Assembly (NCBI GenBank): GCA_021776135.1
Contig: JAJFGL010000055.1
Coordinates: 1 to 64,000 of the forward strand
DNA length: 64,000 nucleotides
Reading direction: 5' to 3'
From: Kiloniellaceae bacterium
Lineage (GTDB): Bacteria > Pseudomonadota > Alphaproteobacteria > Kiloniellales > J153
Shown: positions 425-11,562 of the stretch, one piece after another
Numbering within the stretch: the first letter of the stretch is position 1
How the letters are laid out: each line of letters begins with the position of its first letter
Made by a program: the position numbers and the translations under genes
The notes under the pieces: generated by a model
Databases searched by the model: none
Told to the model about the DNA's origin: nothing
What the model saw: the letters and a program-made list of their open reading frames with translations, nothing else

Positions 425-1123
425 TCAGGCCGCCAGCTGACGCCACTCGGCCAGGGCGGCGGAGCGGTTTTGCTTGAAGATGTCGCGGCGGTTGAGGTGG
501 CGGTCCTGATTGAAATGATTATAGATCGAGGCATGGATCGAGGCGAATTTCTGAAGCGACTTTGCACGCCTGATTTTCGCCATCGCTCGCTCTCGTCGCC
601 GGAACGGTTGATGTGAATTTTCGGCTCGATTGTTGAGCCAACGTCCCGTTACCTGACGGACTTCATTGCCAATTTCTCTCATCGCCGCACCATATGAGCG
701 AGGACGGTCTGTGATGATACCCCTCTGTCGGCCATAGCACTTCATCGTCCGCTTCAAAAATTTGAGTGTAGCTCTACGATCCCTGCGTTTCGTCGCAAAA
801 ACTTCCATCACCTCGCCTTCATGGTCCACCGCCCGCCACATATAATGCATCTCCCCATTGATCTTCACGAAGACCTCTTCGAGATGCCAGCGCCACCGCG
901 GAAAGGCCCGCAGAAAAGCTGATCGCTTCTTCCTGATATTCGCTGCAAACATTGGACCGAACCGGTTCCACCAGAACCGCACCGTCTCGTGGCAGATATC
1001 GTTCCCCTGTTCATTAAGCAAATCCTCAACTTGCCGCAACGATAGCGAAAATCGGACGTACATCATCACCGCTAGGCGGATCACCTCGGGCGAGCTATTG
1101 AAATAACGGAATGGATTTCTCAT
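425..1123 (-). CDS. IS6-family transposase, full length, altered DDE motif
   Basis: This 232-residue protein has the size and order of an IS6-family transposase: an N-terminal HTH region (LSLRQVEDLL), ETVRFWWNRFG, the core WHLEEVFVKINGE, WRAVDHEGEV, ITDRPRSYG and NNRAENSHQPFRRRE, and a C-terminal FASIHASIYNHFN. Such enzymes move IS elements by cointegrate formation through a DDE catalytic triad. Here the first triad position, normally WHLDE, reads WHLEE (codons ctc gaa gag), while the second Asp and the final Glu are intact. An Asp-to-Glu change at this position usually cripples DDE enzymes, so the copy may be inactive; that is inference. The stop codon abuts the neighbouring truncated transposase, leaving no room for the usual terminal inverted repeat on that side. 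No convincing inverted repeat was found on the other side. Confidence 0.88.
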   Translation of the reverse strand: MRNPFRYFNSSPEVIRLAVMMYVRFSLSLRQVEDLLNEQGNDICHETVRFWWNRFGPMFAANIRKKRSAFLRAFPRWRWHLEEVFVKINGEMHYMWRAVDHEGEVMEVFATKRRDRRATLKFLKRTMKCYGRQRGIITDRPRSYGAAMREIGNEVRQVTGRWLNNRAENSHQPFRRRERAMAKIRRAKSLQKFASIHASIYNHFNQDRHLNRRDIFKQNRSAALAEWRQLAA

Positions 1124-1377
1124 CCGAGGAAGCTACAAATAGCGCTCCCAGCGCTTAAGCAATTTTACTCTGACAAAGCCTGTTTGGCGGATACCACCCA
1201 GAAAAGCGCTATATGCGTGATAAGAATGCCAAAGGCACCCGCCAGAACTAAATGTAGGATCTGGATACCTCGCCGCCGGGCGCTTGTATTGCCCGGCAGC
1301 CGGCTACTGACAATCCCGTAATATTGCAGTAACGTATTGCCGTCTTTAGCCAATCGACGGTGGAATTGGTGATCATC

Positions 1378-2112
1378 ATGTCAGGGGCCAATCCAGAGGC
1401 CTCAGAGACAGAACATCGAACCGCGCTAAAACCGTTGCCCGGCCTTCAACTGGCTGCAAGCGAGCGGTTATTGGCTCGATGCCGCGGTATTATGATACCG
1501 GCTGGACAGAGACTGTTCGATCAGGGCTCACTTCACACCTGCACCTACATCGTCGAGGAAGGGTTGGTCCGAACTTATTATTGTGCGTTGTCGGGTCGTG
1601 AGATCACACTTGGTTATTGGTCGGAAGGCAATCTAGTAGGCGGGCCGAATTTCTTCGGTGGCGGTTATCACATCTGGTCGGGAAAAGCCGTGCGCAAGAC
1701 CCGGGTGCTCGCGATCGGAGATTCCGATCTGAAGCAGTTGGCGACGCACGACCCAGATATCCTTTTTTGGGTAGCGGAGGCCATGGCCTTCAAGCTGCGT
1801 TGGTTGTCAATTCTGTTTCAACTGCACGGCACAGAGCCAGTGCGCCAGCGCCTTGCTAAAATACTCGTCATGCTGAGTGATATCTATGGCGCACCCGAGG
1901 ACGACCGAAGCGGTGGCGCAATCACCATCAAGCATAAGATCAGTCAAAGCGATCTAGCAACGCTGGTTGGTGCCTCGCGGCAGTGGACCAACAAGACTCT
2001 GAACGAACTGCAAGAACTCGGTCTGATCACGTTGGCTAACCGGCAAATCCGGATCCTTAACTTGCAGGGCCTCAACGCCATGAGCAGCGAAGAGATGGAT
2101 TTCGTTGATTGA
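1378..2112 (+). CDS. CRP/FNR-family transcriptional regulator
   Basis: This protein of about 244 residues has the CRP/FNR layout: an N-terminal cyclic-nucleotide-binding-type beta-roll (roughly residues 25-140, with IMIPAGQRLFDQGS and YIVEEGLVRTYY), a long dimerisation helix, and a C-terminal winged HTH (SQSDLATLVGASRQWTNKTL). The phosphate-binding pocket lacks the Arg-Ser pair that holds cAMP in Escherichia coli CRP; the equivalent stretch reads GGGYHIWSGK, so cAMP is unlikely to be its effector. There is no N-terminal cysteine cluster of the FNR type. ATG 1378 is preceded by GGTGA at 1368-1372; GTG 1360 is an in-frame alternative. It is the first gene of the accessory cluster and is the obvious candidate to bind the two CRP-type dyads at 2560 and 6615. 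Its ligand is unknown. Confidence 0.9.
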   Translation: MSGANPEASETEHRTALKPLPGLQLAASERLLARCRGIMIPAGQRLFDQGSLHTCTYIVEEGLVRTYYCALSGREITLGYWSEGNLVGGPNFFGGGYHIWSGKAVRKTRVLAIGDSDLKQLATHDPDILFWVAEAMAFKLRWLSILFQLHGTEPVRQRLAKILVMLSDIYGAPEDDRSGGAITIKHKISQSDLATLVGASRQWTNKTLNELQELGLITLANRQIRILNLQGLNAMSSEEMDFVD

Positions 2113-2802
2113 AGAGCCATCAGTCGGCTAACGCCGCGCCTGAACACGCTATCTCCGCGTCCGGCCGGACTGGCCGACACTGGGCGATTATCAGCATGCT
2201 TCATACTTAAAACCGCCTCGTATCGAGCAAGGTTGCGTTCGTTTTACAACACGACCCGTCGAGCCTCGAGATCGCGCTCGCATGTTAGTCCGACGACGTT
2301 TTAGTTAGTAGCCTTTAGCTCTTCGGTACGGATGAGCGAGACACTGACAAAGCCACTGCACCTTGCGCTTTTCCCACTGAAGAACCGGCAACTCCCAGCA
2401 CTCAACATGAACCACAAATTGCCGAGTGGTAACAAAGCCGTCACCGACTGCCATTAGACCCGGAACCTCGAGATGGGCAATCTACCACCCTATGTTGCGG
2501 TGCAACCAACGAGCAGGGAAATCAGAACATTGTATTGAGGCCGGCACTGAAACTCCGCATTGTCAACTGATTGACAGCGCGCCAATCCAGTGTGGGCGAC
2601 AGTTGTGTCACCTAATAGTCCCAAGACGAGGACGTACGGATGGGGATGGATTAGTCGCCGGAACGGTTTGTTAGATAAAAATCGATGCGAACGGCCGGAG
2701 ACCGTACATCAATACATGCCCGTTCGTATCTCGTTCGGTATTGCCCTAACCGGGCCGGTAAAAAATAACCAAGAACTAATGCAAGTGTAGCGGAGGCGCA
2801 TT
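2113..2802 (+). other. Long intergenic leader before the TRAP permease gene
   Basis: No open frame in these 690 bases looks like a gene: the small frames have no ribosome-binding site and no recognisable motif. The stretch holds a CRP-type dyad (2560-2577) and ends with a good Shine-Dalgarno sequence, GGAGG at 2792-2796, before the TTG start of the permease gene. By eye it is less GC-rich than the core genome to the right. No clear sigma-70 -10 element could be assigned, although the right arm of the dyad forms a TTGACA hexamer. Confidence 0.6.
2560..2577. promoter_or_regulatory. CRP/FNR-type operator, copy 1
   Basis: The sequence TTGTCA-ACTGAT-TGACAG is a dyad with 6-nt spacing. Its core TGTCA-N6-TGACA has the geometry of CRP-family sites (CRP itself uses TGTGA-N6-TCACA). 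A second copy sits at 6615-6632, sharing TGTCA, the spacer half TGAT and TGACAG. This copy lies about 225 bp upstream of the TRAP permease start. The right arm contains TTGACA, a sigma-70 -35 hexamer, so the site may overlap a promoter. Confidence 0.6.
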
Positions 2803-4773
2803 TTGGAGCGAGTTGTCAGTCTGGCGTTGTACACGATTGTCGTCTTCGCGGCGGTCTACCAGATGGCCGCGATCCTTTACCCACTACAAGGTGCGCTGGA
2901 GTTCTATTACTTCCACCTTGGGTTGGTTCTGGTCATCGTCACCTTTGACATAGCGCGGACCAAAGCTGGCGAGTCGGATTCGTTTCACCGTGGCGTGTGG
3001 CTTGCGATTCTCTCAATCGTAGGCGGTCTCGCCATTGGCGCCAGCGCCTACCTCTATCTCAACATCGGCGAAATCGAATTCCGGCAACCCTTCATTACGG
3101 AAGTGGATTTCGCCGCGGGCGCCATTCTGATCGGCTGTGTCTTGGTGCTCACGTATCTGGTTTGGGGCGGGATTTTGACCGGAGTCATCGCCCTCGGAAT
3201 TCTCTATTTCATATTTGGGGATCTGTTGTCAGGGGCGATGCATTACAGGCCGCCCGAGAGCGAGATCATCATGAGCTACCTCGCCGGCATGGGCGGTGCA
3301 CGAGGTGTAATCTGGGGAATTCCCCTGTCCGCCAACACGTTGTTCTTAATCATTGTGTTTGGCGGCTTGCTCAAGGGGACTCGGATTCTTGAGTTGTTCA
3401 ACGAAGTTGGCAAACTGCTCCTTGCCGTCAGCCGCGGTGGGATCTGCTACTCCTCGATCCTGGCCAGCACGGCAATCGGCATGGTAACGGGCCAGGCGGT
3501 CGCCAACGTTGCCCTGTCAGGGTCCGTGACGATCCCCTCCATGAAGCAACGCGGCCTCTCCGGCGCACAGGCCGGCGCGGTCGAGGTTGTGTCCTCGCTC
3601 GGCAGTCAGATCATACCGCCGATCATGGGGCTCGGTGGATTTTTGATGGCCGTGAATCTCGGGGTGCCTTACGCGGATATTGCCACGGCGGCAATTATCC
3701 CTGCGGTGCTGTTTATTGCGATCCTATTCGTTGCCGCTTACTTCCTCGCCGAATCGATACCGTCACTCAAAATCCGGTCGGAGAGCGTAGACAAAGGAAG
3801 CATTCTTTGGATGCTCCCCTCATTCCTAACCTCCTTCGGTACCCTGCTCGCCCTGCTCTACCTGCGTTTTTCGCCGGGCTACGCGGCATTTTGGGCAATC
3901 CTGCTGTTGGTTAGCCTGTCGTTCGCACGCCCCGCCGCGTACCGGCCCACGTTTAACGATTTGTTCTCTGGACTGGTCTACGGCGTCGTCTCCGCCGCCA
4001 ACCTCGGTCTTATCCTCGCCGGAATCGGCATCTTGATCCAGGTTCTGGTGACCACCGGCGCGGGCTTCAATCTTGGCCGTATCATCATGCTTGCAGCGGG
4101 CGATAACGTCGGCCTGGCCTTGGTTCTGGGCATGGTGTTGTCGCTGATCATCGGTCTGGGTTTGCCAACACCCGCCGCCTACGCACTGAGCGCGATAATC
4201 ATGATCCCATTCCTCGTGGATATGGGCGTCACACCGATCGTGGCACATTTCTTCGGCTTCTATTTCGCGATCTTTTCGGCAGTTACGCCGCCGGTTGCCG
4301 TGGGAGTCATGGCAGCAACGCGCATATCGGGCGCCTCGTTCTACGAGACCGTCATCCAGTCCGGGAAAATGGCCTTGGTCCCGGTTTTGATACCCTTCAC
4401 CTTCGTCGCATATCCCAACGTGCTCGAGTTTCCGGCGATCACTGTCGAGACGACCGTCGTCTGTCTTGCGCTTCTGGCAACAACTGCAATGTGGGGAGCG
4501 TCAATCTACGGTGTGATAGGTCGTCATCTGAACTGGCTGGAGCGCTCAGGGTTCTTGCTTGGGCCGGCCCTCTACCTGGCATTGCTCATCACCAAAGACC
4601 TAATCTACGCAGCACCCATCCTGGTCGTAGCAACCGCAATGGTGGTTCTCCGAGTGTTGGTTGCGCAACGGCAACGCGGAGCAGTGATGTTTCGAGCGAT
4701 GACCGCGGAACAGCAGCACAGAGCAACAGAGACCGCAGTGACGCCCAAGGCCCGTGCGGCGCCGAGCGAGTAA
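2803..4773 (+). CDS. TRAP transporter fused permease (DctQM-type, TAXI class)
   Basis: This 656-residue, very hydrophobic protein has about 16 predicted membrane spans. It matches the fused form of TRAP transporter in which the small four-span subunit (residues ~1-110) is joined to the large twelve-span subunit. Family signatures visible are GTRILELFNEVGKLL, the stretch at 3477-3540 encoding TAIGMVTGQAVANV, GSQIIPPIMGLGGFLMA, and GLGLPTPAAYALSAII. Such permeases use an ion gradient to import organic acids delivered by a periplasmic binding protein; the matching TAXI-type protein is two genes downstream. The start is TTG, supported by GGAGG six bases upstream. The C-terminal ~60 residues are hydrophilic. 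The cognate substrate cannot be read from the sequence. It heads the first transcription unit of the cluster. Confidence 0.93.
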   Translation: MERVVSLALYTIVVFAAVYQMAAILYPLQGALEFYYFHLGLVLVIVTFDIARTKAGESDSFHRGVWLAILSIVGGLAIGASAYLYLNIGEIEFRQPFITEVDFAAGAILIGCVLVLTYLVWGGILTGVIALGILYFIFGDLLSGAMHYRPPESEIIMSYLAGMGGARGVIWGIPLSANTLFLIIVFGGLLKGTRILELFNEVGKLLLAVSRGGICYSSILASTAIGMVTGQAVANVALSGSVTIPSMKQRGLSGAQAGAVEVVSSLGSQIIPPIMGLGGFLMAVNLGVPYADIATAAIIPAVLFIAILFVAAYFLAESIPSLKIRSESVDKGSILWMLPSFLTSFGTLLALLYLRFSPGYAAFWAILLLVSLSFARPAAYRPTFNDLFSGLVYGVVSAANLGLILAGIGILIQVLVTTGAGFNLGRIIMLAAGDNVGLALVLGMVLSLIIGLGLPTPAAYALSAIIMIPFLVDMGVTPIVAHFFGFYFAIFSAVTPPVAVGVMAATRISGASFYETVIQSGKMALVPVLIPFTFVAYPNVLEFPAITVETTVVCLALLATTAMWGASIYGVIGRHLNWLERSGFLLGPALYLALLITKDLIYAAPILVVATAMVVLRVLVAQRQRGAVMFRAMTAEQQHRATETAVTPKARAAPSE

Positions 4774-4810
4774 TCGGCGCCAAACGTTCGACAAACATAA
4801 GGAGACCAAA

Positions 4811-5506
4811 ATGCCCAAGACTTTACTATTCGATACCTGGGGAACTCTCGTCGACAACTACTCTATCGCCGATGTAATCGAGCCTTATGTGTTCGAATCC
4901 CACACCGCCCAGAAGATCTCGGAGGATTGGCGGTTCCAACATAAATGGGCGATGTTCTATCTGACCTTGTGCGATTCCTTCGTTCCGCACCCCGGCCTCA
5001 ACGAAGCCTGCCTGCGCTGGGCGCTGGACCTGCATCACGTCGAGCTTTCGGATGAGGCGATCAAGGACATCAACGCCCAATATCACAAGCTGCGCGCCTA
5101 TCCCGACGTGGTCGGTGCCCTCAAGGCGCTCAAGGAGCAGGGCCTCACGATCAAGATCATCGCCAATCCGACGAAGAAGATGATCGAGGATCACAGTAAG
5201 TTTGCTGGCACGCGGCCCTATATCGATGAAATCATCAGCTCCGGAGAGGAAGCCAAGGCATTCAAGCCGTCACCCAAGGTCTATCAGCTGGGTATCGAAC
5301 GGGCCGGTTGTCCCAAGGAAGACATTCTGTGGGTCACGAGCCACTTCTGGGAGGCCGTCGGCGCCGTTCGCCAGGGCTTGAGAGTTGCTTGGACTAACCG
5401 TGCACGCCAACCTCCGTTGAAGATCGGCATCAAGCCGACATACACAACGAAGAACCTACAGGAGTTAGCCGACATCCTAACGGCAGAGCAGGAGCGTAAG
5501 CAGTAG
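4811..5506 (+). CDS. HAD-superfamily hydrolase, 2-haloacid dehalogenase-like
   Basis: This protein of about 231 residues starts at ATG 4811 behind AAGGAG and resembles the type II L-2-haloacid dehalogenases. Motif I is LLFDTWGTLVD with the nucleophilic Asp, followed by an Arg in EDWRFQHKW, motif III Lys in AFKPSPKVYQ and a motif IV region WVTSHFWEAVGA. Compared with the well-studied L-DEX enzyme, three catalytic-pocket residues differ: the motif II Ser is Ala (IIANPTKK), the Asn of motif IV is His, and the following Asp is Glu. The core nucleophile, Arg, Lys, Tyr and one Ser are kept. It should therefore be a hydrolase of a related but different substrate, perhaps a substituted organic acid brought in by the flanking TRAP system. 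It sits between the permease and its binding protein, presumably co-transcribed. Whether it really dehalogenates is uncertain. Confidence 0.85.
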   Translation: MPKTLLFDTWGTLVDNYSIADVIEPYVFESHTAQKISEDWRFQHKWAMFYLTLCDSFVPHPGLNEACLRWALDLHHVELSDEAIKDINAQYHKLRAYPDVVGALKALKEQGLTIKIIANPTKKMIEDHSKFAGTRPYIDEIISSGEEAKAFKPSPKVYQLGIERAGCPKEDILWVTSHFWEAVGAVRQGLRVAWTNRARQPPLKIGIKPTYTTKNLQELADILTAEQERKQ

Positions 5507-5559
5507 CCCGCGCTCAAACCACCAGAACATAAATCAGACAAGACAATAGGGAGGAAGCC

Positions 5560-6597
5560 ATGCAGATCAATATAAGGTCGACGGTCCAGAGAGCCAGCGC
5601 GATGGTGCTGGCTACGGTCTTGGCGATCCTGGTAGCCAGCGCGGCCAGCGCCGAACCCAAAACCGTGCGGATATTGATGTCGCCCAGCGGATCCGGGCCT
5701 TACAACGCTTTTGCTACGATTCAGACACATATGGAGGAGTTCTCCGACAAGCTTCGACTGAGCGTTGAGGAAACTCCTGGATTTAATTTCAACGTGAAGT
5801 ACATGGCAGCCCATCCGGATCGGTTTAACGATACTGTTTTCGGTTCCGGTACGGTGCTCGATTGGGCCGCGAAAACCGGCCAAGCGCCGTTCTACCCCGA
5901 GCCTTTGAAGGCCGCTGCCGACTTCCGCGTGATTGGGGTGCTTGGCCTTACTTATAACGTGTGGGTGACAACCGATACAGCGATCAAGGGGCCGGACGAT
6001 TTCGTCGGCAAGCGTGTCGGCATCGGGCTCTTGACTCAGAACGAATGGGGCATGCACCAGCGCATGCTGCTCGATGCTTGGGGCTTGACGCCAAAGCTTA
6101 GCAGCCTCGATACACTCGGCACGTCGGCGAATATCCAGGCGCTGCTCGATGGACGGACCCACGTTGGCACGCTATTCGGCCTGACCAGCGCCGACGGTGC
6201 GCATACGGTGGTGACGGGACCGCACCGCCAGCTCGAGGCCTCGAACCGCGATTGGCGTTATGTCGTCGTGCCTCCAGCGATGATCGAGGGCTACATTGCC
6301 AAGACCGGTGCGCCATTCCGTGTCGTAGACTACGCGCCGAGGACTCTGCCGAACCAGCCGGACCGGCTAACGACATTTGGCGATGTGCTTCTGCTCGAGG
6401 CGCACAAATCGTTCCCGGATGATGCCGCCTACGAACTGGTTCGTGTGCTCGTTGCGAACTACGAGAAGATTAGCAAGTACAGCGCGCTGACTCGTGTCTG
6501 GAGCGGAACTACCTTGGCTTATACCGCAGATACCAAGGCCGAGCTATTTCACCCGGGTGCACTCAAGGCATATCGGGACCTTGGCCTGATCAAGTGA
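5560..6597 (+). CDS. TAXI-family TRAP solute-binding protein
   Basis: This 345-residue exported protein has a Sec signal peptide (about residues 1-31, cleavage after ASAASA). The mature part resembles the TAXI family of TRAP binding proteins: VRILMSPSGSGPYNAFATI at the start, an N-lobe segment FRVIGVLGL.YNVWV, GPDDFVGKRVGIG and SANIQALLDGRTHVGTLFG. These proteins capture an organic anion in the periplasm and pass it to the fused TRAP permease, encoded here by the gene at 2803. ATG 5560 is preceded by GGGAGG. It is the last gene before the second operator, so the unit permease-HAD-TAXI appears to end here. The insert between permease and binding protein is unusual, because the two are normally adjacent. 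Confidence 0.9.
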   Translation: MQINIRSTVQRASAMVLATVLAILVASAASAEPKTVRILMSPSGSGPYNAFATIQTHMEEFSDKLRLSVEETPGFNFNVKYMAAHPDRFNDTVFGSGTVLDWAAKTGQAPFYPEPLKAAADFRVIGVLGLTYNVWVTTDTAIKGPDDFVGKRVGIGLLTQNEWGMHQRMLLDAWGLTPKLSSLDTLGTSANIQALLDGRTHVGTLFGLTSADGAHTVVTGPHRQLEASNRDWRYVVVPPAMIEGYIAKTGAPFRVVDYAPRTLPNQPDRLTTFGDVLLLEAHKSFPDDAAYELVRVLVANYEKISKYSALTRVWSGTTLAYTADTKAELFHPGALKAYRDLGLIK

Positions 6598-6826: not shown

Positions 6827-8275
6827 ATGACAACGAAAAGCCAGAGGCCGGAGGTGGTCCACGACTACCCGGATACCTCCGCATACGATCCCAAAACTCG
6901 ACGCATGATGGATACGATGATTGCGGCAGAGCGACGCTTTCTCGCTGAGCGCGAGCTTGAAGAATGCGAGTGCAAAGACGGAATGTTCCCCAATCCGGCG
7001 GCAAGCGTGACGAGCCGCAGGGGATTTATGGCAGGTACGGCCATCGCTATGGCGACGGCGGGCGCGTTACCTAGGCTGGCAAGCGCCGCCGCGCCGCCCG
7101 GTGCGGTCGAATACGCGGTGCCCGAGGATCCGACCAAAGTGCAGGGCCGGCCGATCGCGCAAGACGGTGGTTACGGTACCCGCTCGCAGTTCGAGACCGA
7201 GGTGCGTTGGCGCTTCCCGACAAAGACGCTCGAATCGTCATGGACCATGACACCTCTCGACAAAAGCCGGGGTATGGTTACGCCCTCCGGCCTGCATTTC
7301 GAACGTCACCACGGCGGCATCCCGACAATCGATCCGGCACGGCACACGCTAACCGTACACGGCATGGCGAAGCGGCCAAAGAAATACACGATGGCAGACT
7401 TGATGCGTTTTCCGTCGGTGACGCGTTTTCACTTCATCGAATGCTCCGGCAACACCTTCACCGAATGGAAGCAAGCGATGATGAAAACCGTGCAGGTGAC
7501 GCACGGATTGACCAGCACGTCGGAATGGACCGGCGTACCACTTTCTACGATCCTCAGCGAGGTCGGTATCAAGGATGGGGCCGCCTGGATACTTGCCGAG
7601 GGCGCAGACGCGGCTGTCATGACGCGCAGCATCCCGATCGACAAGTGCTGGAGCGACGCAATGCTGGTCTACGCGCAGAACGGCGAGGCGCTCAGGCCAG
7701 AGCAAGGTTATCCGCTCCGGCTCCTGCTTCCGGGCTGGGAGGGGAATACTCACATCAAGTGGCTCAGGCGACTCGAAATCAGCGACAAGCCGTTCATGAC
7801 GCGCGAGGAAACGTCGAAATACACCGACCAGGTCAAGATTGGGTTGGCGCGACAGTTCACCTTCACGATGGAAGCGAAGTCGGTGATTACCTTCCCATCG
7901 GGCGAGATGAAGCTACCCGGCCCGGGGTTTTATGAGGTGACCGGCATTGCATGGTCCGGACGCGGCAAGATACAGCGGGTCGAGATCTCAACCGATGGCG
8001 GCAAGATCTGGCACTTAGCGGCGTTGCAAGGCCCTGTCCTGCCGATCAGCCACACGCGATTCCGTTTCCCGTGGAAGTGGGATGGCACGCCCGCGATGCT
8101 GCAAAGCCGTTGCATCGACGAGACCGGCTATGTTCAGCCGACGATACAGGATCTCGTCGCAGCACGTGGCGTCGACGGACATCCTAAATTCGGCTCCATC
8201 TATCATAACAACGGGGTGCAGACTTGGCTGATCAACCCCGATGGATCGGTCGTAAACGGTAACCACCAGGCGTGA
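6827..8275 (+). CDS. SoxC-like molybdenum sulfite-oxidase-family oxidoreductase, Tat-exported
   Basis: This 482-residue protein belongs to the sulfite oxidase family and resembles the SoxC group. The catalytic domain carries HFIECSGN, whose Cys is the expected molybdenum ligand, then TSTSEWTGVPLSTIL, GYPLRLLLPGWEGNTHIKWLRRL and a C-terminal Mo-co dimerisation domain (GIAWSGRGKIQRVEISTDGG). A Tat signal, SRRGFMAGTAIAM, begins only at about residue 63. It is preceded by a charged leader containing EECECKDG, an unusually long n-region. ATG 6827 has GGGGAGG upstream. The enzyme should act in the periplasm, passing electrons to the cytochrome encoded next. The substrate could be sulfite released during organosulfonate breakdown, but the family includes other activities, so this is not proved. 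Confidence 0.9.
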   Translation: MTTKSQRPEVVHDYPDTSAYDPKTRRMMDTMIAAERRFLAERELEECECKDGMFPNPAASVTSRRGFMAGTAIAMATAGALPRLASAAAPPGAVEYAVPEDPTKVQGRPIAQDGGYGTRSQFETEVRWRFPTKTLESSWTMTPLDKSRGMVTPSGLHFERHHGGIPTIDPARHTLTVHGMAKRPKKYTMADLMRFPSVTRFHFIECSGNTFTEWKQAMMKTVQVTHGLTSTSEWTGVPLSTILSEVGIKDGAAWILAEGADAAVMTRSIPIDKCWSDAMLVYAQNGEALRPEQGYPLRLLLPGWEGNTHIKWLRRLEISDKPFMTREETSKYTDQVKIGLARQFTFTMEAKSVITFPSGEMKLPGPGFYEVTGIAWSGRGKIQRVEISTDGGKIWHLAALQGPVLPISHTRFRFPWKWDGTPAMLQSRCIDETGYVQPTIQDLVAARGVDGHPKFGSIYHNNGVQTWLINPDGSVVNGNHQA

Positions 8276-8331
8276 ATGCGCCACGGCATCCGTTTCAGAG
8301 CCAATCCCAATTGAATTGCGGGAGGATCACT

Positions 8332-8907
8332 ATGCTTATGCGGTTTTTTCCAACTAGTGCGATCGGGACGTGTGTTTGGTTAGCGATCTTCGCGGCCGTA
8401 GCATTGAGCGTTCCGGCAAGCGCCCAAACATTCGATTTCGGCACGGCACCGACGGCGGCCGAGATCGCGGCGATTAACATCGACGCCATGCCCGATGGCC
8501 GCGGCCTGCCGGCTGGCAAAGGCACGCCGTCCGAGGGCAAGGCAATCTATGTGGACAATTGCGCTGCTTGCCATGGAACCGATCTTCAAGGTGTGAAGGA
8601 TGCGGGTGGCGCACCGCTGGTCGGTGGGCGAGGCTCGCTCATGAGCGGCAGCCCGAAGAAAACCATCGAGAGTTACTGGCCGTATGCGACCACCGTCTTC
8701 GATTATGTGAAACGGGCGATGCCATTCAACGCGCCGGGCTCGCTGAATGACAATCAGGTCTATGCGGTTACCGCCTATATCTTGTACCGCGGCGACTTGA
8801 TTGGCGAAGGCGACATCATAAACGCCAAAACGCTGCCGCGTGTGGACATGCCCAACAAGAACGGTTTCATCGCCGACCCCCGGCCCGACGTCAACACCTA
8901 TCGCTAA
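8332..8907 (+). CDS. Mono-haem c-type cytochrome (SoxD/SorB-like electron acceptor)
   Basis: This protein of about 191 residues starts at ATG 8332 behind GGGAGG and has a Sec signal peptide ending near SVPASA. A single haem-binding motif CAACH occurs in YVDNCAACHGTDLQG. A distal Met for the sixth ligand is plausible in VKRAMPFNAPGSL, followed by VYAVTAYILYRG. This is the arrangement of the small cytochromes that partner SoxC-type molybdoenzymes. It is shorter than classical SoxD, so it is not a standard SoxCD subunit. It lies 56 bases after the molybdoenzyme and is surely co-transcribed. Expected role: periplasmic electron acceptor carrying electrons to the terminal oxidase chain. Confidence 0.9.
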   Translation: MLMRFFPTSAIGTCVWLAIFAAVALSVPASAQTFDFGTAPTAAEIAAINIDAMPDGRGLPAGKGTPSEGKAIYVDNCAACHGTDLQGVKDAGGAPLVGGRGSLMSGSPKKTIESYWPYATTVFDYVKRAMPFNAPGSLNDNQVYAVTAYILYRGDLIGEGDIINAKTLPRVDMPNKNGFIADPRPDVNTYR

Positions 8908-9011: not shown

Positions 9012-9890
9012 ATGACCGAGACCAAACCTCGGAAGAAGGTAACGATCCGCACCTTACAGAAGAAGATGCGCGATGGCGAAGCGATCACACAAATGGCAGT
9101 CTACGACTATCGCACGGCGGTGGTGTCGGACCGCTTGGGCATGGATATCCTGTGCGTCTCGGACACCGGCGGTATGATCTTGTTCGGGCATCAGAGTACA
9201 GTCACGGTAAGCTTCGACGAGGTAATGATGATGTCCAAGGCGATCGACCGGGGCAGCCAATATGGGCTGCGTATGGTCGACATGCCGTATTGGAGCTTCC
9301 ACGTCTCGCCTGAACAGGCGGTCGAAAACGCCGGTCGTTTCGTCCATGAAGCCAACGCGGAAGTCATGAAGTGCGAGGGCAATCAACATCATGCCCGGAA
9401 TATCGAGGCCATCGTCAAGGCCGGCATTCCGGTACAAGGTCATATCGGCATCACCCCCATGCGCATGCCGCAATTGGGCGGCTTCGTCGCCCAGGGCAAG
9501 ACCGCTGAGCGGGCCAAAGAACTAATTGAAGACGCCCAGGCCTTCGCGGACGCGGGCTGCTTTTCCATCCTGTGCGAGGTCACAACCGCGGAAGTCTGCG
9601 AATATCTGACCGAGACTCTGCCAATTCCGGTGATCAGTCTGGGCGCCGGCAATAAAGCACACGGCGTGCACATCATCAGCTCCGACTTATTCCATCTGTG
9701 GGAGGAGCACGTACCGCGCCACTCGAAGATCTACACCGATCTGATTCCCATCATGGAAGATGTGATCACGCGCTACATGGACGACGTGCGTGCCAGGGCC
9801 TATCCGGGTCCCGAGCATACCGTGTATATGGCGGAGCAGGAATTGCGGAAGTTCGCCGATATGGTGGGCTGGAAGACTAAGCTCACGTAA
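9012..9890 (+). CDS. PanB-like ketopantoate hydroxymethyltransferase homologue
   Basis: This 292-residue TIM-barrel protein is a divergent member of the PanB family (3-methyl-2-oxobutanoate hydroxymethyltransferase), within the PEP mutase/isocitrate lyase superfamily. The expected metal and catalytic residues can be aligned: Asp in LCVSDTGGM, Asp in MVDMPYWSF, Lys and Glu in VMKCEGNQ, His in VQGHIGITP, Glu in SILCEVTTAEV and the ISLGAG loop. LGGFVAQGKT also matches PanB. The protein is less similar to PanB than a pantothenate enzyme would normally be, and it sits in a catabolic cluster with no panC. A C1 transfer or retro-aldol step on a 2-oxo acid is therefore more likely than vitamin synthesis (inference). 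ATG 9012 follows GGGAGA. Confidence 0.83.
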   Translation: MTETKPRKKVTIRTLQKKMRDGEAITQMAVYDYRTAVVSDRLGMDILCVSDTGGMILFGHQSTVTVSFDEVMMMSKAIDRGSQYGLRMVDMPYWSFHVSPEQAVENAGRFVHEANAEVMKCEGNQHHARNIEAIVKAGIPVQGHIGITPMRMPQLGGFVAQGKTAERAKELIEDAQAFADAGCFSILCEVTTAEVCEYLTETLPIPVISLGAGNKAHGVHIISSDLFHLWEEHVPRHSKIYTDLIPIMEDVITRYMDDVRARAYPGPEHTVYMAEQELRKFADMVGWKTKLT

Positions 9891-10026: not shown

Positions 10027-11562
10027 ATGAAGGACCGAACGCCAGTAAACACATCGAGACGAGACATGTTTAAGCTGTCCCTGGGCGGCGTGGCCGTTGC
10101 CGCAACAGCCTCCGTTCTGCCGAGCGGTTCATCGTGGGCGGACGATGAAAAGCATGGCTCCGAGACTCGCTTTTCCGTCGGACCTGTAGGTTTTACGACG
10201 TTCATACACCCTTCCGTGGACTTGGGTGTCAGCAAGTTCTCGATTGGGGCTGCAAGCCTGATCGATGCTTTCGTTTCCTTGGAAGGAAAGCAGGCGGAGA
10301 TCGGCAACGCTGTGAATCTCCAAGACAACGACCGCCTGCTGGACTTCGATCATGGTGCGGGTCGAGGCGATCTCAAGCTTGGTGACGGCACCTTCACCGC
10401 ACACGGCGTGACCTTCGTCGGTAAGGTACGGATTGGCGAGGCATGCGGCTCCGGCATCAACGCGATTGTACAGAATACCCGCATCGGCGACGGATCCTTC
10501 GTCGGCCTCGTCGCCCAGATCCTCGGTCCGGACCCGGAAGACCTGATTGAGATCCCGGAAGCGAGTTTGGTTCTGTTCGGCGCTCGGATCAGAAATCAAA
10601 CTGAGGTCGAGGCTAACATTATTCCTGTGCCGGCGCCGTTTTCGCTGTTTTTCGCCGATGTGGACGAGGAAAATCTGGTTCTGGCGCGCGGTTTCAATTT
10701 GCTGTATCGGGCAGCCGCACGCATGACGCCGTTTTCGGATATCGTCGGGGATCCGCGGAATCCTGGTGACGATTTCCCGAGCGTGGCCGAGGCGTTTGGT
10801 CGCATCGGAATTGCCCCGCCTTCGATCTACCGGCGCGGCACAGGTGTCCTGCCGGCCCGTCAGGCAACACTCGGCGACCTTGGATTAGCTCGCTTCGAGG
10901 TATTGTCACCGGTGCCCACGCCGAGCACCGAGCCACCCGAATTTGATCCACTCGGCAACGCGCCAGCCGCTGACAGCCCCGAGGCGGGCGCCCGCTTCGT
11001 CGCGCCCCGCATCGCATCGCCAGAACTAATCCACCCGAATGCTTCGGTCCTCGGCGGCGTGGAATTGGCTCCAGGTGTTGTCGTAGGCGCGGGCAGCTAT
11101 GTGCTCGGTGACGTGGCGCCCACCGTGTCGGTTGGGGCGCGTACAAGGATCGGCCGCAACACCAGCCTGCATGAGCTTACTTTCACTTCCTGCCGTGTCG
11201 GCGAAGATTGCGTGATCGGAGACCGAGTCGTCATACATGGGCCCGTCGAGTTGGGTGATCGTGTTACCGTAGGCGATGGAGCCGTACTATTCGGCCCTAA
11301 AATCCTAGACGATGTCACGATCGGAGCCAGATCTCTGGTGTTCGGACCCGTCGAGATCGTGGAGGACGTGCCGCCCGATACGATTATCGTCCCGCCAGGG
11401 CAGGAATTCCTGATCGCCCCCTCAGCACCTCAGAACACAGCCAAGTTGGATGTTCCTGAGGAGTCACCAACGATGCTTGCGCAATGGCGCCGCGCTCAGC
11501 ATGGAGGCGGGGGATGCGGGTGCGGCGTCGGCAACCTGATCCATATGACGAAGGCCGGTTAA
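10027..11562 (+). CDS. Tat-exported double left-handed beta-helix protein, gamma-carbonic-anhydrase-like
   Basis: This 511-residue protein starts with a Tat signal (TSRRDMFKLSLGG, cleavage near SSWADD). It contains two blocks of hexapeptide repeats typical of a left-handed beta-helix, at about residues 55-190 and 335-455. The first block resembles gamma-carbonic anhydrases (VGKVRIG, RIGDGSFVGLVAQI). However, only one of the three zinc-binding His positions can be found (TAHGVTF); the others look replaced, so hydratase activity is doubtful. The linker between the helices is Pro-rich. The extreme C-terminus carries HGGGGCGCGVGN, a Gly-Cys tail that might bind metal or act as an anchor. ATG 10027 follows AAGGAAG. 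It is the last gene of the accessory cluster and has no assigned function. Confidence 0.75.
   Translation: MKDRTPVNTSRRDMFKLSLGGVAVAATASVLPSGSSWADDEKHGSETRFSVGPVGFTTFIHPSVDLGVSKFSIGAASLIDAFVSLEGKQAEIGNAVNLQDNDRLLDFDHGAGRGDLKLGDGTFTAHGVTFVGKVRIGEACGSGINAIVQNTRIGDGSFVGLVAQILGPDPEDLIEIPEASLVLFGARIRNQTEVEANIIPVPAPFSLFFADVDEENLVLARGFNLLYRAAARMTPFSDIVGDPRNPGDDFPSVAEAFGRIGIAPPSIYRRGTGVLPARQATLGDLGLARFEVLSPVPTPSTEPPEFDPLGNAPAADSPEAGARFVAPRIASPELIHPNASVLGGVELAPGVVVGAGSYVLGDVAPTVSVGARTRIGRNTSLHELTFTSCRVGEDCVIGDRVVIHGPVELGDRVTVGDGAVLFGPKILDDVTIGARSLVFGPVEIVEDVPPDTIIVPPGQEFLIAPSAPQNTAKLDVPEESPTMLAQWRRAQHGGGGCGCGVGNLIHMTKAG

Follow-up and report, generated by a model that had tools for sequence, protein, structure and literature searches.

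Gamma-class carbonic anhydrases (gamma-CAs; e.g., Cam/CamH, YrdA) are built on a left-handed beta-helix, and their zinc ligands are His81, His117 and His122 in Cam numbering (as used in the part of PMC5746736 that deals with the ligands). According to the passage of PMC9873573 on the metal sites, the metal sits between two subunits, and spacing assigns 81 and 122 to one subunit and 117 to its neighbour. In Arabidopsis complex I, the same passage has zinc held by H130 of gammaCA1 together with H107 and H135 of gammaCA2, the other two interfaces missing one or two His; the histidines are thus unequally spread over gammaCA1, gammaCA2 and CAL, with one complete interface (PMC9873573). The protein described here shows an uneven spread of histidines as well, but the plant units are separate mitochondrial polypeptides, whereas here they would form one exported chain. 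To our knowledge, the plant gamma-CA heterotrimer possesses no Cys-Gly-Cys (CGC) tail.

We analysed a stretch of 64,000 nucleotides from a Kiloniellaceae bacterium (the window), which contains a gene for a 511-aa protein. Judged from its sequence, the product belongs to a rare kind of exported bacterial protein: it has two carbonic-anhydrase-like beta-helices (h1 and h2), and what is missing from the zinc site differs between them. Probably, a metal or a ligand is bound in an unusual way, and the protein does not work as an ordinary carbonic anhydrase. The left-handed beta-helix, the NxQD motif (in h1) and the zinc His positions are shared with Cam/CamH and YrdA; two helices per chain, an export leader, split histidines, the loss of R59 and a CGC tail set it apart from them. 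The observation made in the sequence-only reading is thus borne out, with corrections given below, and its interpretation holds in part. The features are listed in Table 1.

Table 1. Features of the 511-aa protein and its gene, with positions in the window.
Feature	Position	Strand	Basis
Gene for tandem gamma-CA-fold protein, 511 aa	10027..11562 (stop codon included)	+	ATG start; orthologues L001:7974-9497 and L019:1480-3033 aligned
Probable ribosome-binding site AAGGAA	10013..10018	+	sequence
Putative twin-arginine leader, aa 1-38	10027..10140	+	SRR invariant in 3/3; cleavage point guessed; Pfam TAT_signal sub-threshold
h1, first predicted left-handed beta-helix, aa 55-195	10189..10611	+	hhalign to gamma-CA 96.9%, E 2e-10
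NLQD motif of h1: N97, Q99, D100 (Cam N73, Q75, D76)	10315..10326	+	profile alignment
H126 (h1), equivalent of zinc ligand His117	10402..10404	+	profile alignment
Connector, aa 196-320, with predicted helix at ~aa 214-232	10612..10986	+	69/100 invariant over aa 196-295; alignment A2; helix also in low-confidence model
h2, second predicted left-handed beta-helix, aa 326-455	11002..11391	+	Hexapep 5.4e-20; hhalign to gamma-CA 99.3%, E 2e-20
H382 (h2), equivalent of zinc ligand His81	11170..11172	+	profile and PDB alignments
D399 (h2), vacated His117 position; D/R/N across three orthologues	11221..11223	+	profile alignment
H404 (h2), equivalent of zinc ligand His122	11236..11238	+	profile and PDB alignments
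Conserved tail, aa 491-502, QHGGGGCGCGVG; C497 and C499 invariant	11497..11532	+	orthologue alignment

At the N-terminus, SRRDMF precedes a hydrophobic stretch, and Tat export is likely because S10-R11-R12 is invariant in the alignment of all three orthologues. The sequence-only reading had called the protein Tat-exported; the Tat-type leader stands, proof of export does not, as Pfam TAT_signal stays below its cut-off (13.8 versus 22.7 bits). Folding or cofactor loading may take place ahead of Tat export, which would be reasonable for a Tat substrate.

The only Pfam matches above cut-off are hexapeptide repeats, the strongest at residues 389-422. The double helix proposed earlier is borne out by profile-profile comparison with 52 gamma-CA rows, which places both h1 (96.9%) and h2 (99.3%; E 2e-20), the gamma-CA profile being collinear with each of them throughout; PDB gamma-CAs are matched by the protein as well. 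Neither curated gamma-CA model is passed (NF050158, 39.3 bits with a cut-off of 250; NF040597, 34.6 with a cut-off of 380). As h1 and h2 are barely alike (hhalign probability 11.6%), the pair is, on this comparison, not a recent duplication. Among the three orthologues, invariant residues make up 63% of h1 (60-195), 69% of the connector (196-295) and 64% of h2 (326-468), and the predicted connector helix may correspond to the gamma-CA C-terminal helix. MAFFT put all 52 gamma-CA rows on h2, so a deeper alignment covering both helices was not obtainable that way. AlphaFold models were of low confidence, both for the full protein with three sequences (pLDDT 36.0) and for h1 plus the helix with two (pLDDT 39.8).

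The Hexapep matches, together with weak similarity to NeuD, LpxA and CysE models, could also indicate that the protein is a hexapeptide-superfamily acyl- or acetyltransferase. This is very improbable: the listed models score far below their cut-offs (NeuD 61.5 versus 160.8 bits), gamma-CA can be aligned with both helices along their full length, and the periplasm is not a compartment where acyl-CoA or acyl-ACP would be expected.

In the gamma-CA set (52 rows, 51 distinct genes), the zinc-site residues are nearly universal (His81 in 52, His117 in 51, His122 in 52, R59 in 52, Q75 in 51, N73 in 49). Against this background, the predicted His losses of h1 and h2 are unusual and complementary. The earlier claim that the first helix keeps a single zinc His of three is confirmed by the profile alignment, with L105 at the position of His81, H126 at that of His117 and V131 at that of His122. 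In h2, two of the three remain (H382 and H404), with D399 in place of His117. The second shell is distributed differently: h1 retains N73, Q75 and D76 (as N97, Q99 and D100), h2 none of them (R374, G376 and R377). R59, which is important for catalysis, is absent from both helices (S84 in h1, L360 in h2). A complete His3 set (81, 117, 122) is found within neither h1 (117 only) nor h2 (81 and 122 only), and the whole chain carries exactly one set, H126 in h1 and H382 plus H404 in h2. The phrase "lost zinc ligands" of the sequence-only reading, which was silent on h2, is thus correct within each helix but not established for the whole chain, because the h1/h2 interface could provide one complete His3 set. 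H126, H382, H404, L105 and V131 are invariant and position 399 is variable, invariance over three sequences being a weak statement.

Note that the register of h1 is shifted by one coil in some single-sequence PDB matches (9gva, 9qev, 9qez). The register used here is backed by the profile comparison and by 9rmq; it also pairs NLQDN with NVQDG. With the shifted register, H126 would fall on His81 and the other two ligands would be lost; h1 would still keep one His of three, and the split site would be incomplete.

We tentatively read the protein as two diverged gamma-CA-type helices, exported, with a single metal-binding site between h2 and h1 and the CGC arm beside it. The protein would fold in the cytoplasm and leave by Tat. 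h1 and h2, of one chain or of neighbouring chains, would pack side by side like gamma-CA subunits, so that H126 and the pair H382/H404 come together in a single metal site where h2 meets h1, the other interfaces being metal-free; the plant complex I heterotrimer shows a comparable economy. The glycine-linked CGC tail, just past the C-terminal helix of h2, would be a thiolate arm for binding, loading or guarding the metal; alternatively, it might perform thiol chemistry beside it. The strict single-chain version, a split-site gamma-CA with divided His, metal only at the h2/h1 interface and a mobile CGC arm for loading, guarding or altering that metal, which might be other than zinc, is rather unlikely.

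The division of the histidines fits gamma-CA logic, with the 81/122 pair in h2 and 117 in h1, and D, R or N at position 399 is expected if that face has no metal. However, given one and two surviving His, the chance of a matching split is ~1/9, and the complementary split is therefore suggestive only. Against a split site, N73/Q75 are in h1 and not beside the 81/122 pair, whereas the passage on complex I in PMC9873573 puts Q101 (the Q75 equivalent) on the subunit giving 81/122. Furthermore, two helices per chain are not simply accommodated in a three-helix trimer. Two marks of the gamma-CA enzymes, R59 and N73/Q75 on the same unit as 81/122, are missing here, R59 being gone and N73/Q75 being confined to h1; efficient carbonic anhydrase catalysis at this site, or ordinary CA activity, is therefore unlikely.

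A simple three-fold assembly is conceivable if three chains associate homotypically, an h1 trimer being joined to an h2 trimer, with H382/H404 and the CGC tail forming a His2Cys or His2Cys2 site. C497/C499 would then replace the lost His117, consistent with the invariance of H382, H404, C497 and C499 and the variation at 399, and the tail, which directly follows the stretch globally aligned to the gamma-CA C-terminal helix, would be accounted for. We consider this assembly unlikely, as it gives neither the invariant H126 nor the NLQD motif of h1 a part in metal binding, and the C-terminal part of the alignment is weak and forced by the global mode.

The loss of R59 from both helices, compared with its presence in 52/52 gamma-CAs, would also suit a protein without metal, i.e., a periplasmic scaffold or small-ligand binder similar to CAL subunits or other catalytically dead proteins of gamma-CA fold, with the tail as a disulfide or redox arm. 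Incomplete gamma-CA sites can hold other ligands, e.g., crotonyl/butyryl-CoA at the gammaCA2-CAL2 interface (in the passage of PMC9873573 on that interface), and the connector, with 69/100 residues invariant, equals the helices in conservation, as for a binding surface. A metal-free protein is possible, though doubtful: it leaves unexplained why exactly the complementary His are invariant.

The conservation of the tail stands out from its surroundings. In the three orthologues, 7/12 residues (58%) of 491-502 are invariant versus 1/12 (8%) in the linker 469-480, 3/10 in 481-490 and 0/9 in 503-511; the three versions are QHGGGGCGCGVGNL, QDSGSCCGCGLGGM and QDAGGGCGCGVGNM. As its Cys and Gly codons differ synonymously among the orthologues, selection seems to act on the tail at the protein level. 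The CGC tripeptide itself is not rare (11 occurrences in the six frames of the window) and is common in G+C-rich frames, so the weight of the tail comes from its conservation. The sequence-only reading had placed the tail at the C-terminus; it is present, but GGGGCGCG is not the very end, since eleven residues (VGNLIHMTKAG) come after it. That relatives should keep the tail was a point set beforehand, and both orthologues found (2/2) do so, with different codons. A search of the PDB with the tail alone gave no match.

A CGC motif behind a glycine linker could serve metal binding, a redox disulfide or sulfur carrying. Erv2 uses a C-terminal CGC as a shuttle. The N-terminus of E. coli HypB (MCTTCGCGEGNL) contains the string CGCGxGN, as does the tail, and three Cys of the HypB N-terminal CxxCGC bind nickel together with the amino terminus (according to a passage of PMC7055735). 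However, the HypB motif is N-terminal and belongs to a GTPase, and the likeness is one of analogy, not homology.

SoxY (TIGR04488, "SoxY_true_GGCGG") also carries a Cys in a glycine-rich arm of an exported protein, with the arm at its C-terminus. The 511-aa protein could be a sulfur carrier of this kind, its CGC tail moving as the GGCGG arm does in SoxY and acting for the SoxCD encoded just upstream. Indeed, the plus-strand order in the window is SoxC (equivalog, 558.9 bits, cut-off 420), a SoxD-like cytochrome c (both within 6827-8907), a PanB-like gene and the 511-aa gene, and the genome lacks a SoxY match: TIGR04488 finds none in G000 (97.9% complete), the same search matching G001, G003, G005 and Thiogranum (4/7 genomes). 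Nevertheless, such a role is most improbable and was mostly rejected. In the genomes of the other two hosts, G282 and Thiogranum, no SoxC scores above the cut-off, and the protein thus does not co-occur with SoxCD over the set of three; soxCD is not adjacent to the gene in either of them, and the Thiogranum genome has its own SoxY. The fold differs too, and the tail, which stops short of the chain end, has two Cys instead of the single Cys of the SoxY motif. The protein matches 32 NCBIfam families; the SoxY model is not among the best 25, and the remaining 7 rank lower.

As for the sulfur genes themselves, SoxY and SoxC are both present in 2/3 same-genus genomes searched, and the SoxC of the window shares only 49-55% identity with those SoxC of relatives that pass the cut-off; it is possibly an orphan or acquired sulfite/sulfane dehydrogenase, as far as these comparisons go. 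The PanB-like product (9012-9890) scores above the TIGR00222 cut-off and below that of NF001452, and neither of the two sox regions compared from the same genus contains a match to it. Upstream on the same strand (425-6597) are genes for a TRAP-type DctM permease, a HAD hydrolase and a TAXI-type binding protein (NMT1_3); ahead of these are genes for a Crp-type regulator and an IS240-type transposase. Downstream come a TonB receptor gene, a gene for a periplasmic binding protein and ABC genes.

In both other hosts, the orthologue adjoins a gene for an exported-looking protein of ~300 aa (L001:9556-10434 and L019:486-1436; 57% identical). It has no match in G000 (a search run without a positive control) and none in Pfam, NCBIfam or PHROG, nor does the G282 copy match the PDB. 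A 32% identical relative is encoded on the Agarilytica plasmid pSU2, beside genes for a GNAT protein and an iron-containing redox enzyme. Directly 3' of the G282 orthologue lies a gene for an exported-looking 203-aa protein of no known family (L019:3027-3638). The genome of the window also encodes an exported-looking 515-aa protein with a very long regular hexapeptide beta-helix (L017:1093-2640, minus strand) and what we take to be a calcium-repeat-like stretch. Across the three gene contexts (window, L001, L019), no shared pathway was seen.

The two orthologues, 66 and 67% identical, come from a Thiogranum MAG (L001) and the complete genome G282 (L019). An exact-peptide-word scan of genome contigs, which detects close relatives only, gave 13 loci, one of them (L001) a full-length orthologue. 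L005, L009 and L010 were rejected as orthologues, their ORFs being generic beta-helix proteins, presumably LpxA/LpxD-type neighbours; for L002-L004, L006-L008 and L011-L013, which were not read one by one, the match covers only 46 to 119 residues within h2 or close to it. Whole-genome searches found the protein or relatives of it in 1/190 genomes of related bacteria (the own genome), in 4/398 genomes of the phylum (the own genome, G282 with an orthologue matching over residues 8-507, G522 and G072) and in 1/369 of the class of G282 (G282 itself). The proteins of G522 and G072 (L020, L021) are ordinary gamma-CAs and were discarded. A profile of the connector (A2) matched in 2/398, 1/200 and 2/61 genomes; the match in G009 (E 8e-5) is part of an otherwise dissimilar 834-aa protein and was judged unrelated. 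The 511-aa protein is missing from the other three genomes of its genus, plasmids contain no relative of it, and viral contigs gave none with either the 511-aa protein or gamma-CAs as query. With only three members across the genome, plasmid and viral scans, the family is rare and patchy by these counts, its three members belonging to at least two classes of the phylum. A literature search, judged from listings and with most subscription journals outside its coverage, found no paper on a Tat-exported or periplasmic, fused or tailed gamma-CA of this kind.

By the features tested, the protein has the gamma-CA fold and lies outside the enzyme class, and a split or thiolate metal site is plausible. 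If this is true, it would show how the old gamma-CA fold is adapted to form a new metal site or to bind a ligand, and would offer a one-chain, easily mutated counterpart of the complex I gamma-CA heterotrimer.
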